Shown in pieces: positions 1,760-42,906 of a DNA stretch of 43,444 nt. The first letter of the stretch is position 1, and the number at the start of each line of letters is the position of its first letter. The stretch covers positions 1-43,444 of the forward strand of contig NCGC01000009.1 of assembly GCA_002281475.1 (NCBI GenBank), read 5' to 3'. A program made the translations under genes and the position numbers. Source of the DNA: Methylophilales bacterium 28-44-11 (GTDB lineage: Bacteria > Pseudomonadota > Gammaproteobacteria > Burkholderiales > Methylophilaceae). A model generated the notes under the pieces. It ran no database searches, was not told where the DNA came from, and worked only from the letters and a program-made list of their open reading frames with translations.

Positions 1760-3220
1760 TTATTGCGTAATAATGAAAACAGATTTTTCAGTGGTGGTTT
1801 CAAGCGTATCTAAAGATTTCACCTGAAACAAGACAGGATGTGATCCTCTAGCCAACACGCCATCAGGCACCTTAATTTCCATAACTACCGATTGATCTTT
1901 GCCAGGTGCAACTTTAATTTGATATTTTGCCGCCTCAATTGGCAATGTTTTAGCTTCATTGAACTCTGCCTCAAAAGCTTCGTTACCAAGCACTTTTACT
2001 TGATAGGTTTGAGCTTGTTCAGAATTATTCATGATTTTTAAACGGTAGACATTTTCTAATTTGTTGTCGTCAGACATACGTGACATGACGGCACGATCAC
2101 GTATTATGTCCACACGGAAAGAAGGTTTAAAGTACAAGCTAACACTCAATCCCACCACTAATAACAATAAAATCGCTGAGTAAATTAATACACGAGGTCT
2201 GAGAATACGCTGAATAATATGATGGCGTGACCAGTTGTTCTGCATGGCGTTTTCAGTGGAGTATTTAATCAGTCCACGTTCAAAGCCCATCTTATCCATG
2301 ACGGTATCACAAACATCGGCACATGCACCGCATCCAATACATTCATATTGCAAGCCGTTACGAATATCAATGCCAGTTGGGCATACTTGCACACACAAAC
2401 TACAGTCAATACAAGAACCCAGTGCTGCATTTTCTACGACAGACTTTTTGTTACGTCCGCCTCTTGGCTCACCACGTGCTTCATCATAGGTCACGATTAA
2501 AGTGTCACCATCAAACATTGCACTTTGAAAACGTGCATAAGGACACATATATTTACACACTTGCTCGCGCATAAAGCCTGCATTGCCATAAGTAGCAAAG
2601 CCGTAAAAAAACACCCAAAACGTTTCCCATGGGCCTAAGCTCAATTGCAAGGAGCTACTAAATAACTCACGAATAGGCGTGAAATAGCCTACGAAAGTAA
2701 ACCCAGTCCATAAAGCAAATGTAATCCAAGCAAGATGTTTCAGAAACTTTTTAGAGATTTTTTTGCTGCTGATGCTAGATTGGTCTAATTTAATGCGGGC
2801 AGCGCGGTCACCTTCAATTTTAGTTTCTATCCACAAGAAAATCTCTGTGTAAACAGTTTGCGGACAAGTGTAACCACACCATAATCGTCCTGCAATCGCA
2901 GTAAATAAAAACAATGAAAGCGCAGATATAATCAGCAAGAAGGTAAGATAAATTAAATCTTGCGGATTGAGTACTAACCCAAAGATAAAGAATCGTTTGG
3001 CTTCAAGATCGAACAACATGGCTTGGCGTTGACCCCATTCTAACCAAGGTACGCCATAAAAAAACAATTGGGTGAGCCATACCATGACCCACCGCCAATT
3101 GGTAAAAATGCCTGTCACACTGCGGGGATAAATCTTATCTTGCGATTGATACAGTGAATACACCACATCCTCTAAAGGAATATTGGTTTCTTTCACTGCC
3201 CGCGTGTTGGCATCATTCAT
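1760..3220 (-). CDS. ccoG: cbb3 oxidase assembly ferredoxin-like protein CcoG (copy 1)
   Basis: A 486-residue integral membrane iron-sulfur protein needed for copper handling and maturation of cbb3 oxidase (CcoG/FixG/RdxA family; reported to act as a Cu(II) reductase). It has several membrane segments in the first 200 residues, the conserved cysteine segments GYTCPQTVYTE and CKYMCPYARFQ, then two ferredoxin motifs: CIDCSLCVQVCP and CIGCGACADVC. The C-terminal third after the last membrane segment is an Ig-like periplasmic domain. The ATG overlaps the ccoP stop codon by 4 nt (ATGA), which implies translational coupling. A clear paralogue lies at 9011-10453. Length and motif order are normal for the family. 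Confidence 0.95.
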   Translation of the reverse strand: MNDANTRAVKETNIPLEDVVYSLYQSQDKIYPRSVTGIFTNWRWVMVWLTQLFFYGVPWLEWGQRQAMLFDLEAKRFFIFGLVLNPQDLIYLTFLLIISALSLFLFTAIAGRLWCGYTCPQTVYTEIFLWIETKIEGDRAARIKLDQSSISSKKISKKFLKHLAWITFALWTGFTFVGYFTPIRELFSSSLQLSLGPWETFWVFFYGFATYGNAGFMREQVCKYMCPYARFQSAMFDGDTLIVTYDEARGEPRGGRNKKSVVENAALGSCIDCSLCVQVCPTGIDIRNGLQYECIGCGACADVCDTVMDKMGFERGLIKYSTENAMQNNWSRHHIIQRILRPRVLIYSAILLLLVVGLSVSLYFKPSFRVDIIRDRAVMSRMSDDNKLENVYRLKIMNNSEQAQTYQVKVLGNEAFEAEFNEAKTLPIEAAKYQIKVAPGKDQSVVMEIKVPDGVLARGSHPVLFQVKSLDTLETTTEKSVFIITQ

Positions 3221-9010: not shown

Positions 9011-10453
9011 TTATTCAACAGGCATATAAAACACAGAGCTCTCTATTATGCTTTCTTGCGTGTCCAGCGCAGTGACTTCAAACTGTATTGCATGCATACC
9101 AGGGTTCACACTATCACCAAGCATTTGCACGCTAATCGGCACTAACTGTTCAGAAGTTGCATGCACTTTTACTAGCTTTTGATTCAACATGGACAACCCT
9201 TTTGGTCCAATCACATTGATTTGATAGCTACGCGCTGATTCAGTTGCATTGGTGATCTGCATTCGATAAACATTTTCTATATTGCCGCCTGCCTCCAAAC
9301 GCGCCATCACTCCTCGATCACGCATGATGTCTACTTTGAATGAGGCTCGATTTGCCAATGACACTACCAAGCCAATGGAAATAATCAAGAGTAAGCCTGC
9401 ATAAATCAATACACGTGGTCTCAGCATGTTGATGATTCGTTGTGAATGCGTGAGTTGTTGTGCCTCTCCATTTTTGGTTGAAAAACGTATCAAATCTTTT
9501 GGATAATCCATTTTATCCATCACGCTATTGCAAGCGTCTACACACAAGCCACAGCTGATACATTCGTATTGCAAGCCATCCCTTATATCAATGCCTACAG
9601 GACACACCTGCACACACAATCTACAGTCAATACAATCGCCTAAGCCTTTTGCATTGGCGTCGATATGACGCGAACGCCCACTTCTTGGCTCTCCGCGCTT
9701 AGTGTCATAACTGACAATTAATGTGTCATCATCAAACATTGCACTTTGAAAACGCGCATAGGGACACATATACTTACATACTTGCTCCCGTAAAAACCCT
9801 GCGTTGCCATACGTGGCAAACCCATAAAAACAAATCCAAAAGGTTTCCCATCCGCTCAAGTTAAACATCAAAATATGCTGCATTAAGTCGCGAATTGGTG
9901 AGAAGTAGCCGAGGAAAGTGAAGCCGGTCCACATCGAAAAAGTAATCCACACAGTATGCTTGATGAGTTTTTTCGACACTTTTTTTGCATGGATGGAAGC
10001 ATTATCTAAACGCATGCGGGCAAGACTGTCTCCTTCGACTTGACGCTCAATCCATAAAAATATTTCCGTGTAGACCGATTGAGGACAAGAAAACCCACAC
10101 CACAAGCGCCCTGCAACTGCCGTAAATAAAAATAGAGCAAGGGCTGAAATGATCAGAATAAACGCTAGGTAAATCAAATCTTGTGGAAATAGCACCAATC
10201 CGAAAATATAAAATTGATGCGCGCTGATATCAAACAGTACTGATTGGCGATCATTCCAAGTCAACCATGGAATGGTGTAGAACACAATTTGGGTGAGCCA
10301 AATCATCACCCAACGCCAATTTTTAAAATAGCCTCTGACGGCGCGTGGGTATACTTTATCTTGCGAGGCATACAATGAAATATATTGTGCCTCATCAGAC
10401 TGGCTGATAATCGGTATGATTTTTCTATTGCGTCCTGCTGCTAGCTTGCTCAT
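9011..10453 (-). CDS. ccoG: second CcoG-like iron-sulfur membrane protein (copy 2)
   Basis: A 480-residue paralogue of the CcoG at 1760-3220. It keeps all hallmark segments: QDKVYPRAVRGYFKNWRWVM at the N terminus, GFSCPQSVYTEIFLWIE, CKYMCPYARFQSAMFDDDTL, and the two ferredoxin motifs CIDCRLCVQVCPVGIDIR and CISCGLCVDAC, then a C-terminal Ig-like periplasmic domain. The two copies are clearly related along their whole length but differ at many positions and in the N-terminal tail, so this is not a recent duplication. GAGG lies 7 nt before the ATG. It stands upstream of ccoI, separated by the predicted ccoI promoter. It may be a redundant or specialised electron donor for copper reduction in cbb3 assembly. 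No FNR box is evident upstream of it. Confidence 0.92.
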   Translation of the reverse strand: MSKLAAGRNRKIIPIISQSDEAQYISLYASQDKVYPRAVRGYFKNWRWVMIWLTQIVFYTIPWLTWNDRQSVLFDISAHQFYIFGLVLFPQDLIYLAFILIISALALFLFTAVAGRLWCGFSCPQSVYTEIFLWIERQVEGDSLARMRLDNASIHAKKVSKKLIKHTVWITFSMWTGFTFLGYFSPIRDLMQHILMFNLSGWETFWICFYGFATYGNAGFLREQVCKYMCPYARFQSAMFDDDTLIVSYDTKRGEPRSGRSRHIDANAKGLGDCIDCRLCVQVCPVGIDIRDGLQYECISCGLCVDACNSVMDKMDYPKDLIRFSTKNGEAQQLTHSQRIINMLRPRVLIYAGLLLIISIGLVVSLANRASFKVDIMRDRGVMARLEAGGNIENVYRMQITNATESARSYQINVIGPKGLSMLNQKLVKVHATSEQLVPISVQMLGDSVNPGMHAIQFEVTALDTQESIIESSVFYMPVE

Positions 10454-28626: not shown

Positions 28627-29400
28627 ATGCCAGATAAAAAGAAGACAATTAAAGTATTGATGTTTTTACTTCCCGCAATTGTCAGTTTATTGGCATACAC
28701 CGCATTCCATGAAATGCTCTTTAGAAAACCACCCTGTATAATAAATTGTGATCAGCCAACTGTATTTTCTGACAATGAACAATTAAAAAAATGGCTCGCT
28801 TTTCTTAATTCCCTCCGTGATAACCCTTTTAAAGCCAAATCAAGCGACAAACGTTCCTTGCCATCGCCTCTAGACCAAGCTTTCTTGCAAGAAAAAATCA
28901 ACACTGCCAGTAACGATAGTGATTACTTATCACGTTACCAGAAAACCATCAGCGACCTGACAAGCCCAAATGTGATTGAAAAGAGCACTAATAATAACGT
29001 TGGAGAAGTGAGCCTTCAAGATCAAGTTGCTCCATTAACTTATTTAGATCAAGACCAAAACCCTATTAATCAAGTAATTTCAGAGCCTTCAATTGAAGGA
29101 GAAACGAATATCAGCCCCTTTACCAATCCAAGGAATGGACCATATTTTATCCCTACTGGAACCCCTAATGTTGTAAGTAACGGCAATCCTTTCATTGTTG
29201 GTGGTCCAGGTGTTGGTGGTCCAGGTGTTGGTGGTCCAGGTGATGGTGGTCCAGGTGATGGTGGTCCAGGTGATGGAACCAACAATCCAATTTCAAGTGT
29301 TCCAACACCTCGCTCCGATTACTTAATCTTAGGTTTAGTTTTTGCTTTTGGTTTAATCAGATTTAAATTATTACAACGTGCGTACGACTTTAGGTTTTGA
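28627..29400 (+). CDS. unrecognised membrane or sorted protein with Gly-Pro-Gly repeats
   Basis: I do not recognise this 257-residue protein. A basic start (MPDKKKTIK) leads into a hydrophobic segment (about 9-28). The middle is polar and rich in Asn, Ser, Asp, Gln and Pro. Residues 192-216 are five perfect copies of GGPG(V/D), encoded by five 15-bp repeats at 29200-29274. The end has VPTPRSDY, a hydrophobic stretch (LILGLVFAFGLIRF) and basic residues KLLQR. This order resembles a PEP-CTERM sorting tail, where the motif is usually VPEP, so cell-surface processing by an exosortase is possible but unproven. The other reading is a two-helix inner-membrane protein with a periplasmic loop. It is 5 nt ahead of the DUF4139 gene. 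Confidence 0.7.
   Translation: MPDKKKTIKVLMFLLPAIVSLLAYTAFHEMLFRKPPCIINCDQPTVFSDNEQLKKWLAFLNSLRDNPFKAKSSDKRSLPSPLDQAFLQEKINTASNDSDYLSRYQKTISDLTSPNVIEKSTNNNVGEVSLQDQVAPLTYLDQDQNPINQVISEPSIEGETNISPFTNPRNGPYFIPTGTPNVVSNGNPFIVGGPGVGGPGVGGPGDGGPGDGGPGDGTNNPISSVPTPRSDYLILGLVFAFGLIRFKLLQRAYDFRF
29200..29274 (+). repeat. five tandem 15-bp coding repeats
   Basis: Five in-frame copies of GGTGGTCCAGGTG(T/A)T. The first two end in GTT (Val) and the last three in GAT (Asp); all other bases are identical. The near-identity of codons suggests recent expansion by slippage, and copy number may vary between strains without shifting the frame. Confidence 0.97.
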
Positions 29401-33417: not shown

Positions 33418-34197
33418 TTAACGAATAATGCCGCGGGTTGATGTTTCGAGAAAATCGGTTAATAAGCCAATTTCCGCACATCTGTTTTTCATTGTGGCTA
33501 ATTCAATTTTAGCTTCTTCAAGTGTCAGGCTATTGCGATATAGTACTTTATAAGCACGCTTAATTTCGAGTATAGATTCGGGACTAAAACCACGACGTTT
33601 TAACCCTTCTGCGTTAATGCCATGTGGCTTTGCATCATATCCTGCTGCCGTCACATAAGGAGGTATATCTTTAAAGACCACAGATCCTACCGCGGTAATA
33701 ATATGCGCGCCAATCTGACAAAATTGATGCACCAAAGTAAAACCACCTAAAATTGCAAAATCATGCACATCGACGTGACCCGCTAAGGACGAATTATTGG
33801 CCATGATGGTGTTGTTTCCAATCACACAGTCATGCGCAATATGCACATAGGCCATAATCCAGTTGTCGTTCCCAATTTTAGTAGTGCCTTTATCTTGCAC
33901 CGTACCACGATTAAACGTACAAAACTCACGGATGGTGTTGTTATCACCGATCTCTAATGTGGTGGGCTCATCACGATATTTTTTGTCTTGTGGTTGTTCA
34001 CCCAGTGAAGAAAACTGAAAAATATGATTGTTTTTGCCAATGGTAGTTGGGCCTTTAAGCACCACATGACTACCAATACGTGTATTGGCATCAATGCGTA
34101 CACCTGCACCTACTGTGGTGAAAGCGCCAATTTCAACGCTGGAATCAATCTCAGCATTGTTGTCCACTATTGCAGTGGGATGAATTTTGATTGTCAT
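33418..34197 (-). CDS. lpxA: UDP-N-acetylglucosamine acyltransferase
   Basis: A 259-residue left-handed beta-helix enzyme that adds the first fatty acid in lipid A synthesis. Hexapeptide repeats run through residues 5-190 (IHPTAIVDNNAEIDSSVEIG, IGAFTTVGAGVRI). The catalytic histidine region is MAYVHIAHDCVIGNN, followed by GGFTLVHQFCQIGAH and the family C-terminal AEGLKRRGFS. It follows the fused lpxD-fabZ frame by 42 nt. Confidence 0.97.
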   Translation of the reverse strand: MTIKIHPTAIVDNNAEIDSSVEIGAFTTVGAGVRIDANTRIGSHVVLKGPTTIGKNNHIFQFSSLGEQPQDKKYRDEPTTLEIGDNNTIREFCTFNRGTVQDKGTTKIGNDNWIMAYVHIAHDCVIGNNTIMANNSSLAGHVDVHDFAILGGFTLVHQFCQIGAHIITAVGSVVFKDIPPYVTAAGYDAKPHGINAEGLKRRGFSPESILEIKRAYKVLYRNSLTLEEAKIELATMKNRCAEIGLLTDFLETSTRGIIR

Positions 34198-34239: not shown

Positions 34240-35724
34240 TTAATTGTTTTTTTCAATGGCTTTTAAAATACACATCATGCTGGCTTCAGCAACCACCACC
34301 CCGTCCACAGTAGCCACGCCTGAATATTTCCAAATTCCTTTTAAAATACGGTCAATTTTGACATTTAGAATAATCTGATCCCCTGGCGACACAGGTTTTT
34401 TGAATCGAGCACTATCGATGCCTGCAAAATAATATACAGAGTCATTGTTGGGCTTGGTATCCATGGTTTTAAATGAAAGTACAGCAGCAGCTTGGGCCAT
34501 CGCTTCCACAATCAACACACCAGGCATTACAGGATGATATGGAAAATGTCCTGGAAAAAAAGGCTCATTGACTGTCACGTTTTTCAATGCGGTGATCTCT
34601 TTGCCAATCTCCATTGAGAGCACTCGATCTATCAACACAAATGGATACCGATGGGGTAAATGATCCAATATTTCGTGAATATCCATACTATTTGATACAT
34701 TTTCTGGGCTAAGTTGGTGTATTGCGTCTTCTAAGGCTTTTATTTTATCCGTTAATTGGTTTAAATGGCGAATATTTGCAGCGGTTTTCAACCAAGTTTC
34801 ATGTTCCTGAAATGGCATTAGCGCTGTATAGGTGCCTGATTGACGAATGGAACGCATAATCATACTGCCAGGGGAGATAGTGACATGATCTGCAATAGAA
34901 AGATGACCCAAAATCATAGCCGCACCACCAATTTTACAATGCTTGCCAATCTTCGCACTCCCGGCTATGCCCACACATCCTGCTATCACCGTATGCGCCC
35001 CAATGTGACAGTTGTGCGCGATTTGAATCAGGTTATCAAGCTTCACACCTTCTTCAATCACCGTATCATCAATGGCACCCCTGTCTATGGTAGTGTTCGC
35101 ACCAATATCGACATAATCACCAATCACCACGCGCCCTACTTGCGGAATTTTAACCCAACGGCCATTGTCTTCTGCATAACCAAAACCATCATTCCCAATC
35201 ACACAGCCAGAAAATAAATGACAACTTTTTCCAATCTGCGTGCCGTGCTTTACCGTCACATTAGGTTCTAATTGAGTGCTCTCTGCAATGATGACATCTT
35301 GCTCAATCACACAACCGGCACCTATGATGACACCGGCAGCCACTCTCACCCGATCTCCGATGACCGCATGGCAACCAATTGAAGCGCTAGGATCAATAGA
35401 GGAACCTTCACCAATGATTGCAGAAGCATGGATGCCCACAGCTGGCAGAATCACTGGGTTCAATAAAGCAGATATCTTGGCAAAGTAAGCATAAGGATTA
35501 TCCGTCAATATTTTGGGCAACGCTGTGAGATTAGCGTGCTGTGGTGTTAACACCACAGCACTGGCTTGCGTTTGAGCAAGCGCCGATGAATACTTGGTAT
35601 CCATAAAAAAGCTAATTGCGCCAGCTTGTGCGAAAGCTAAAGAACCAACGCGGTGGATATTGGTAGTAGCGTCACCAGAAATCTCACCACCCAAAGAATC
35701 AACGATAGTTGCAATTGTCAGCAT
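34240..35724 (-). CDS. lpxD-fabZ: LpxD-FabZ fusion frame: UDP-3-O-acylglucosamine N-acyltransferase plus 3-hydroxyacyl-ACP dehydratase
   Basis: One open frame of 494 codons holds two enzymes that are normally separate. Residues 1-346 are LpxD: an N-terminal uridine-binding domain ([12 protein letters not shown]), hexapeptide repeats, the catalytic region [13 protein letters not shown] and a C-terminal helix ([11 protein letters not shown]). Residues 347-494 are Fab[21 protein letters not shown], the catalytic histidine in HRYPF, and [21 protein letters not shown]. At the junction V-S-N-S-M-D-I-H runs in frame with no stop; the FabZ Met lies at 34686 and has no clear ribosome site. Both halves are full length. 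In another frame TAG falls one base before that ATG, so a single-base indel could have made the fusion, or an assembly error could mimic it. Confidence 0.88.
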
Positions 35725-35749: not shown

Positions 35750-36253
35750 CTATTTCTTACCTAAAAGCTTTAACACTTTATCGGTAATATCAATCTTTTT
35801 ACTTGCATAAGCTACGCCACCATATACAACCAAATCAAAACTTTCAGATTCAGCCACACTGGTGACCGCTTTGTTAATACGGTCTTGCAACACTGCTAAC
35901 TCTTCATTTTTACGCAGGTTTATGTCTTCTCTCAACTCACGCTGTTTACGTTGAAACTCTAACTTAAGATTAGACGCATCACGTTCGCGATTTCTTCGTT
36001 CTGCATCGGTCGTTGTTAGTCGGTCTTTGTCCAATGCGGCTTCTAAATCACGGATCTGCTTTTGCAAACGGTCTAACTCTTGCGAGCGAGGACTGAATTC
36101 CTTTTCTAGTTTCTTTCCACTTTCAGCGGTTTGTGGGGCTTCTTGTAACAATTTGTCGACTTGCACATAGCCAATTTTGAGTTCTGCCGCTACGCTATTT
36201 ACCGCCAGCAACATACCCATTAACAAATACAGCCATACCAAAACTTGCTTCAA
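35750..36253 (-). CDS. skp: periplasmic chaperone Skp (OmpH family)
   Basis: A 167-residue chaperone that keeps outer-membrane proteins soluble in the periplasm. A signal peptide ([22 protein letters not shown], by position residues 2-23) precedes [19 protein letters not shown] long charged coiled coil follows ([20 protein letters not shown] region), then [18 protein letters not shown]. The start is a TTG at 36253 with GAGGAG 6 nt upstream; the longer TTG frame at 36271 overlaps that ribosome site. It lies between bamA and lpxD as is standard. Confidence 0.93.
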
Positions 36254-36300
36254 CGAAATCTCCTCTGCCAAGCAGCTATCTTATAGGATATATAGTTTAA

Positions 36301-42069: not shown

Positions 42070-42823
42070 CGGTAGGTGCTTTTATTTGTTCGCTGGTGCG
42101 TCCAAAGCGGCGTTCACGTTGCTGGAAAGACTGTATGGCTTTTGCAAAGGCTTGACCATCAAAGTCTGGCCACAGCACTTCAGTAAAATATAACTCTGTA
42201 TAAGCTAACTGCCATAATAAAAAGTTTGAAATCCGTGTCTCGCCCCCGGTACGAATAAACAGGTCCGGTTCAGGCGCATAATGCATCGATAAATATTGAT
42301 TGATATCCTGCTCTTCAAATTTTCCAGCTTTTGCTGGGTTCATTAGGTGCATTTTGTTGGTTGCCTGCATCACATCCCAACGACCACCATAATTTGCTGC
42401 AATGGTGAGCACTAAACCTGTGTTATTTGCAGTGAGTTGTTCAGCAGAGATGATTTGTTCATTTAACGCCGCCCCAAATTTTGATCGATCGCCAATGAGC
42501 ACTAAGCGAATATTGTTTTCATGTAACTTGAACACTTCGCGCTTTAATGCATCCATAAACAAGCCCATTAAAAATGTCACTTCTTCTTCTGGTCTGCGCC
42601 AATTTTCGCTACTAAAAGCAAATAAAGTCAGATATTTAACATTAATTTCTGCACACTTTTTGACCAAAGTTCGAACAGTTTCTACGCCACGTTTATGGCC
42701 TGCAACACGCGGCAAAAAACGCTTTCTGGCCCAACGGCCATTGCCATCCATGATCACCGCAATATGCGCAGGCACATCGCCTGTGATGGGGATTGTTTGC
42801 GTACTGCTTGAGAATAAACCCAA
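42062..42823 (-). CDS. uppS: undecaprenyl diphosphate synthase
   Basis: A 253-residue cis-prenyltransferase that builds the C55 lipid carrier for peptidoglycan and O-antigen. Signatures are HIAVIMDGNGRWARKRFLP, GHKRGVETVRTLV, LTLFAFSSENWRRP, and the C-terminal PEPDLFIRTGGETRISNFLLWQLAYTEL region (landmarks only). The start is a TTG at 42823 with AAGG 8 nt upstream; an in-frame TAA stands immediately before it, so no earlier start exists. The first five codons and the ribosome site are part of a perfect 30-bp tandem duplication. Confidence 0.95.
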   Translation of the reverse strand: MGLFSSSTQTIPITGDVPAHIAVIMDGNGRWARKRFLPRVAGHKRGVETVRTLVKKCAEINVKYLTLFAFSSENWRRPEEEVTFLMGLFMDALKREVFKLHENNIRLVLIGDRSKFGAALNEQIISAEQLTANNTGLVLTIAANYGGRWDVMQATNKMHLMNPAKAGKFEEQDINQYLSMHYAPEPDLFIRTGGETRISNFLLWQLAYTELYFTEVLWPDFDGQAFAKAIQSFQQRERRFGRTSEQIKAPTDA

Positions 42824-42868
42824 TTAATTGGCCTTAGGTGAGAATAAACCCAATTAATTGGCCTTAGG
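42809..42868. repeat. perfect 30-bp tandem duplication over the uppS start
   Basis: Bases 42809-42838 and 42839-42868 are identical. Each copy carries, on the minus strand, an AAGG ribosome site, a 12-bp palindrome (CCAATTAATTGG), a TTG start and the first five uppS codons. The true gene begins in the copy nearer uppS. Confidence 0.99.
42824..42853 (-). CDS. possible 9-codon upstream ORF ahead of uppS
   Basis: The outer copy of the 30-bp repeat has the same AAGG and TTG as uppS. From that TTG the frame reads nine codons (MGLFSPKAN when initiated) and stops at TAA, 42824-42826, directly against the uppS TTG. Ribosomes could translate it and restart on uppS. Translation is inferred from the duplicated ribosome site; no protein role is claimed. 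Confidence 0.4.
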   Translation of the reverse strand: MGLFSPKAN

Positions 42869-42906
42869 TAGCGTTAAAAATGTGGTGTGTGATGCGTTTA
42901 ATGGGA

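Follow-up and report, generated by a model that had tools for sequence, protein, structure and literature searches.

Here, we identify an open frame in which LpxD runs without interruption into FabZ, and we consider it likely that this frame represents a genuine, recent and lineage-specific gene fusion that arose by a deletion of ~25 to 31 bases and is translated as one protein. The frame occupies 34240..35724 on the minus strand of the window (the whole stretch of 43,444 nucleotides that was analyzed); in the list of open reading frames, it starts with ATG and comprises 494 codons with zero internal stops, giving a protein of 494 residues with a calculated mass of 52.6 kDa. The predicted product consists of LpxD, a short flexible linker and FabZ. 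LpxD would perform the third step of lipid A synthesis, in which a 3-hydroxyacyl chain is moved from acyl carrier protein (ACP) to a sugar nucleotide, and FabZ would dehydrate 3-hydroxyacyl-ACP for fatty-acid elongation.

Several lines of evidence bear on the two domains. First, the LpxD model TIGR01853 (NCBIfam) matches residues 7 to 327 with 351.9 bits against a cut-off of 242.5, placing this part in the LpxD family. Second, the FabZ models TIGR01750 (192.4 bits, cut-off 155.15, residues 347 to 486) and NF000582 (199.2 bits, cut-off 113, residues 348 to 486; both NCBIfam) place the second part in the FabZ family, and the Pfam FabA-like, Hexapep and LpxD domains each score above their own cut-off. 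Third, E. coli LpxD (PDB 3eh0) aligns across residues 3 to 333, and the FabZ chains 4h4g, 1u1z and 6n3p cover most of the FabZ part. Based on TIGR01853 and the 3eh0 alignment, the LpxD part spans residues 1 to 338 (34711..35724, minus strand), and in the structure model its C-terminal helix spans residues 308 to 338 (34711-34803, minus strand). The FabZ part, delimited by TIGR01750 and NF000582, the alignments to 4h4g, 1u1z and 6n3p and a Foldseek match to 6n3p, comprises residues 347 to 494 plus the stop codon (34240..34686, minus strand). In the alignments, H237 (codon 35014..35016, minus strand) and H274 occupy the positions of H239 and H276 in E. coli LpxD (3eh0); we take H239, located in the left-handed beta helix, to be the catalytic histidine and H237 to be its counterpart. 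The His-Glu pair expected of a FabZ with the hot dog fold is present as H393 (codon 34546..34548) and E407 (codon 34504..34506, both minus strand) by alignment to FabZ structures. Thus, the continuous frame, the complete domains and the conserved catalytic residues described in an earlier reading of the sequence alone are borne out by the frame, the profile scores and the alignments. Judged by sequence, two full-length enzyme domains within one frame exceed chance. E. coli LpxD (3eh0, 4ihf-4ihh) and FabZ (6n3p) share full-length homology and catalytic residues with the two parts; however, in E. coli LpxD (a trimer) and FabZ (a trimer of dimers) are separate proteins.

The sequence-only reading saw no linker, which is slightly wrong: eight residues, 339 to 346 (SPENVSNS; 34687..34710, minus strand), follow the LpxD helix, which ends at about residue 338. 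This segment is defined by comparison with relatives and by low model confidence at residues 338 to 344, and within it ENVSNS corresponds to the end of FabZ's own N-terminal extension.

Comparison with the two closest relatives, G020 and G009, indicates how the frame could have arisen. These unfused pairs have the same gene order and domains, with protein identities of 78-79% for LpxD and 98-99% for FabZ; however, their genes are split by 13 bases in G020 and 19 in G009, including a ribosome-binding site. In G020, lpxD ends with INQLSPKAE and a stop, followed by the 13 bases and the fabZ start (MSENVTNSMDIHE). In the window, IHQLSP of lpxD runs directly into residues of the FabZ N-terminal extension, and the junction is shorter by 31 bases than that of G020 and by 37 than that of G009. 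The missing stretch contains the lpxD tail and stop, the fabZ ribosome-binding site (Shine-Dalgarno) and the fabZ start codon. Because 31 and 37 are both 1 modulo 3, the +1 frame of the relatives becomes frame 0. Coding similarity to the relatives continues up to the break on either side, and the junction has barely diverged from their coding ends. With start codons chosen by script, on which all these gap lengths rest, an 8-base gap separates lpxD from fabZ in 15 of the 19 other genomes of the genus, and fabZ starts 8 to 9 residues (24 to 27 bases) upstream of the position of ATG 34686, at a site lost in the window. G013 (locus L005) has ambiguous bases inside lpxD, and its computed gap of 352 is not a real spacing.

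We suggest that slippage between two short CAGAA repeats, one at the end of lpxD and one at the start of fabZ, is a probable route for the deletion. CAGAA occurs twice at the G020 junction, 25 bases apart, and if the LpxD of an ancestor ended in SPE, removal of one copy with the intervening bases would yield the window sequence exactly. The weak point of this route is that the repeat has 5 bases only and that two further 5-mers are likewise repeated at the G020 junction. The deletion would have taken the lpxD stop together with the ribosome-binding site and start codon of fabZ while keeping the frame. We infer that the deletion is present in the living cell and arose by this route, that one protein is made and that both activities are kept; in the simplest view, this would be a tolerated, near-neutral fusion of neighbors that fixes LpxD and FabZ at a 1:1 ratio.

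The fused gene lies in a same-strand neighborhood of bamA, skp, the fused gene, lpxA, lpxB and rnhB, where the names bamA, skp, lpxB and rnhB are our assignments from the sequences. The upstream gene at 35750..36271 (minus strand) is presumably skp/ompH-like, and the next gene of the cluster, at 33418..34197 (minus strand), is presumably lpxA; it has an LpxA-like match, and such matches follow fabZ in relatives. Elsewhere in the window, two complete genes for the cytochrome c oxidase accessory protein CcoG (1760-3220 and 9011-10453, minus strand; 505.3 and 504.6 bits, cut-off 316.7) flank a heavy-metal ATPase gene and what we take to be ccoN, ccoO and ccoP. A predicted protein of 257 residues at 28627-29400 contains Gly-Gly-Pro-Gly repeats encoded by a 15-base tandem repeat (29199-29276, 5.2 copies) and had no NCBIfam match at E 1e-20. 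At 42809-42869, a perfect two-copy 30-base tandem duplication lies over the start of what is presumably uppS, between uppS and a gene we take to be frr; it is either another slippage-type change in the contig or a sign of assembly.

The fusion is rare in the genomes surveyed. It was found in 1 of 20 genomes of the genus and 1 of 144 genomes of the family read at the junction; these 144 come from a family set of 187 genomes, 175 of them with a match. As the sequence-only reading had stated for related bacteria, lpxD and fabZ are adjacent and separate genes, here in 143/143 other family genomes read at the junction, including 19/19 of the genus; its suggestion to look for the joint frame in other Methylophilaceae thus returned 0/143. 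Among the 237 loci examined first, 235 had both domains (L193 and L225, with no FabZ match, were set aside), and the only fused ones were the window's own two. Of 80 named loci, some from the same genomes as the set above, 78 were read and all have separate genes, as do 24 further genomes from the order and phylum searches (L241-L264) and 14 additional ones. Among the matches listed for 938 genomes (G000-G937; 187 from the family, 399 from the order and 398 from the phylum, in overlapping groups), no second stop-free row spanned both domains. Some LpxD-only rows had open_frame values above 480 and thereby raised the candidate of fusions in other genera, which we reject: the family loci have an intervening stop, and all 34 counted order and phylum rows of this kind (20 + 14) have separate genes. 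Evidently, stops do not terminate the open_frame value. We also reject a Skp-LpxD fusion as the source of the long values, since skp has a stop before lpxD at 4/4 loci checked.

The lpxD-fabZ gap is ≤20 bases, overlaps included, in 76 of the 143 unfused family pairs, and in 37 of the 143 the two genes already share a frame. With close spacing so frequent and yet 0/143 fused, the fusion is not readily fixed: the chance for it is common, and fixation is not seen in the family genomes read. At L050 (G042), the fabZ ATG directly follows the lpxD TAG in the same frame with no further stop between the domains, placing this junction a single base change short of fusion. The sequence-only reading had also proposed that separate genes in all close relatives, together with two proteins in the organism, would speak against the fusion. 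The half on relatives holds; on the sequence evidence, however, separate genes in relatives mark the fusion as lineage-specific and do not disprove it.

The strongest competing explanation is that the fusion is an artefact or a minority strain variant, so that the population has separate lpxD and fabZ genes and the contig lost ~31 bases. We consider this unlikely, although it has several points in its favor. The source is one metagenome-type assembly (G000) of 234 contigs and 88% completeness, in which the window is contig 109, and it is the only genome of its species among those compared; thus, the fusion is known from one fragmented assembly, every other family genome read at the junction is unfused, and the duplication at 42809-42869 indicates that slippage-type differences, whether of biological origin or otherwise, occur in this contig. 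Against it, the flanking genes are intact. Ten flanking genes tested against G020 within the thirteen-gene neighborhood are each in one frame or gap-free: lpxA, lpxB, maf, rsmI and skp have zero gaps in the DNA alignment, and for maf, rsmI, rnhB, bamA, rseP, dxr, cdsA and uppS one reading frame holds along almost the entire gene. Moreover, the repeats flanking the missing piece in G020 have only 5 bases, and assemblers work with words longer than this. Finally, the deletion is in frame and spares both domains; of random artefacts, perhaps one in three would do so.

Two specific errors can also be set aside. The sequence-only reading had suspected a one-base indel at the AAAA run; L003 (G009), L004 (G020) and L005 (G013) carry the same CAGAAAATG with an identical run, which argues against a homopolymer error. 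Nor would its proposed one-base correction, which places TAG before the ATG at 34686, restore the layout of the relatives: in relatives with NS at this position, the TAG falls within the codons for Asn and Ser, inside the fabZ coding sequence (NS-MDIHE), so that a one-base fix cannot give their arrangement. The contrast in identity to G020 between FabZ (97%) and LpxD (77%) raised the candidate of a chimera or recombination breakpoint at the junction. This is rejected because DNA identity to both G020 and G009 is 0.78-0.87 in the 100-base bins adjoining the junction, without a step; the contrast reflects the greater conservation of FabZ. Altogether, the fusion probably is real, as far as the sequence of a single assembly can tell.

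Both parts of the fused gene also appear to be the only copies in the assembly. TIGR01853 scores above its cut-off once, in the fused gene, and PF07977 twice, in the fused gene and in a protein on contig 100 that, from its sequence, we take to be FabA. A search for a second lpxD or fabZ in the 88% complete assembly found none, only fabA. Consistently, 8/8 genus relatives tested have one FabA-type and one FabZ-type match, G009 having a third, weak one. pN relative to G020 is 0.135 for lpxD and 0.009 for fabZ, and the corresponding values for G020 versus G009, both unfused, are 0.132 and 0.006, in a test that is coarse, with synonymous sites near or at saturation, and that covers mostly the time before the fusion. 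Both fused parts show divergence typical of unfused pairs. FabZ is essential in E. coli, according to the accessible part of PMC9842644; a broken fusion would therefore probably be lethal unless another copy lies in the unassembled part. Because E. coli FabZ accepts many substitutions of its His and Glu (same part of PMC9842644), the presence of these residues is weak proof of activity. Nevertheless, with no further lpxD or fabZ located in the assembly, activity has most likely been retained in both domains.

Whether the frame gives one protein or two depends on translation at the junction. Because no stop codon halts ribosomes at the end of LpxD, one product would be expected, most likely an enzyme of 52.6 kDa whose two domains are joined by a short flexible linker. 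A stronger lpxD start was considered as a candidate compensation for the lost fabZ signal; the anti-Shine-Dalgarno pairing energy there is −5.1 kcal/mol in the window, and start codons picked by script in the genus range from about +0.6 to −6.5. In a second alternative, the frame is real and a separate FabZ is still made, either because ribosomes also initiate at ATG 34686 or because the linker is cleaved. This ATG is in frame and lies at the FabZ start of some relatives (MDIHE was chosen by script in L171, L177 and L178), solved FabZ sequences align from its residue onward, and the structure model has low confidence in the linker. However, ATG 34686 has no Shine-Dalgarno sequence, with a pairing energy of +0.2 kcal/mol compared to −2.9 to −4.3 kcal/mol at the fabZ starts of 19/19 genus loci, and it lies inside a translated frame without a stop to free ribosomes, making this alternative very unlikely.

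In the least probable explanation, the fusion is older, under selection and common to a clade, and serves to link LPS synthesis with phospholipid synthesis. This explanation would draw on the effect of FabZ activity on the LPS/phospholipid balance in E. coli (PMC13333357, from the part available), but G020, G009, G013 and all other genomes read lack the fusion and its junction has hardly diverged from the coding ends of relatives, leaving it a very remote prospect. The likelihoods given to these explanations overlap slightly, because a fusion of older date would be no less real.

Returning to a recent fusion translated as one protein, we modeled the product as a monomer with AlphaFold2, using 34 input rows of which 33 were relatives read through their normal gap (mean pLDDT 73.2, pTM 0.34). 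The model places the helix at 308 to 338, residues with pLDDT <50 at 338 to 344 and then the hot dog domain; pLDDT is also <50 at 172 to 197 in LpxD and at 390 to 397 around H393 of FabZ. By Foldseek, the modeled FabZ domain matches 6n3p_A with a TM of 0.90 and an rmsd of 2.1 Å. The LpxD part fits its own crystal structures loosely (TM ~0.5, rmsd ~14 Å), with a poor beta helix. The model thus supports the domain order and the linker, not the assembly.

The sequence-only reading had proposed that a fused pair would fix a 1:1 ratio, could channel or balance 3-hydroxyacyl-ACP between the two pathways and would assemble in an unusual way. As for assembly, the C-terminal helix bundle of P. aeruginosa and E. 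coli LpxD contacts ACP, and FabZ is a trimer of dimers, as reported in the sections at hand of PMC6820557 and PMC2698920, respectively. By symmetry, a three-fold LpxD end on each face of a FabZ hexamer would be compatible. One doubtful arrangement is a bifunctional LpxD-FabZ in a closed (LpxD3)(FabZ6)(LpxD3) particle, in which the FabZ trimer of dimers would show three N-termini per face, an LpxD trimer would sit on each, and a tether of ~8 residues would hold FabZ near the ACP-binding helix bundle of LpxD at a fixed ratio. If so, the two routes open to 3-hydroxyacyl-ACP, into lipid A or into elongation, would meet in one particle, and the LPS/phospholipid balance would be hard-wired by nature.

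Fusions of FabZ to a lipid A enzyme have precedent. The sequence-only reading named LpxC as the known fusion partner, in agreement with the available portions of PMC516016 and PMC3087551, which describe LpxC-FabZ fusions as having arisen by joining of neighboring operon genes. In LpxC-FabZ (NF009667; Bacteroidetes, Chlorobi, Verrucomicrobia), FabZ likewise stands in frame behind a lipid A enzyme of the same cluster. By contrast, the partner here is LpxD, an acyltransferase that uses 3-hydroxyacyl-ACP, rather than the deacetylase LpxC, and LpxD-FabZ occurs in one Methylophilaceae genome while LpxC-FabZ extends across phyla. The fused protein falls outside NF009667, with 180.7 bits against a cut-off of 465 and a match to residues 316 to 487 only. 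Because the pair is adjacent and unfused in all 143 other family genomes read, it would have the character of a fusion of operon neighbors (a Rosetta protein). We met no LpxD-FabZ fusion in the literature searched, which included few subscription papers and in which, in the excerpts available, "lpxD-fabZ" names a gene cluster or gives its gene order.

How LPS and phospholipid are kept in balance where their pathways part at 3-hydroxyacyl-ACP has long been asked, and FabZ is a known lever; its activity shifts this balance in E. coli (PMC13333357, as far as the text was available). Genus relatives provide FabZ with its own ribosome-binding site (19/19 loci), and here FabZ output would be tied to that of LpxD. 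Such tying could matter for the LPS/phospholipid balance; near-neutral tolerance is the simpler view, and a fusion that is merely tolerated would be a small evolutionary curiosity. The fusion appears to be seen near its birth, the deletion being still readable against close relatives, and if the organism lives with it, independent dosage of LpxD and FabZ would not be required.
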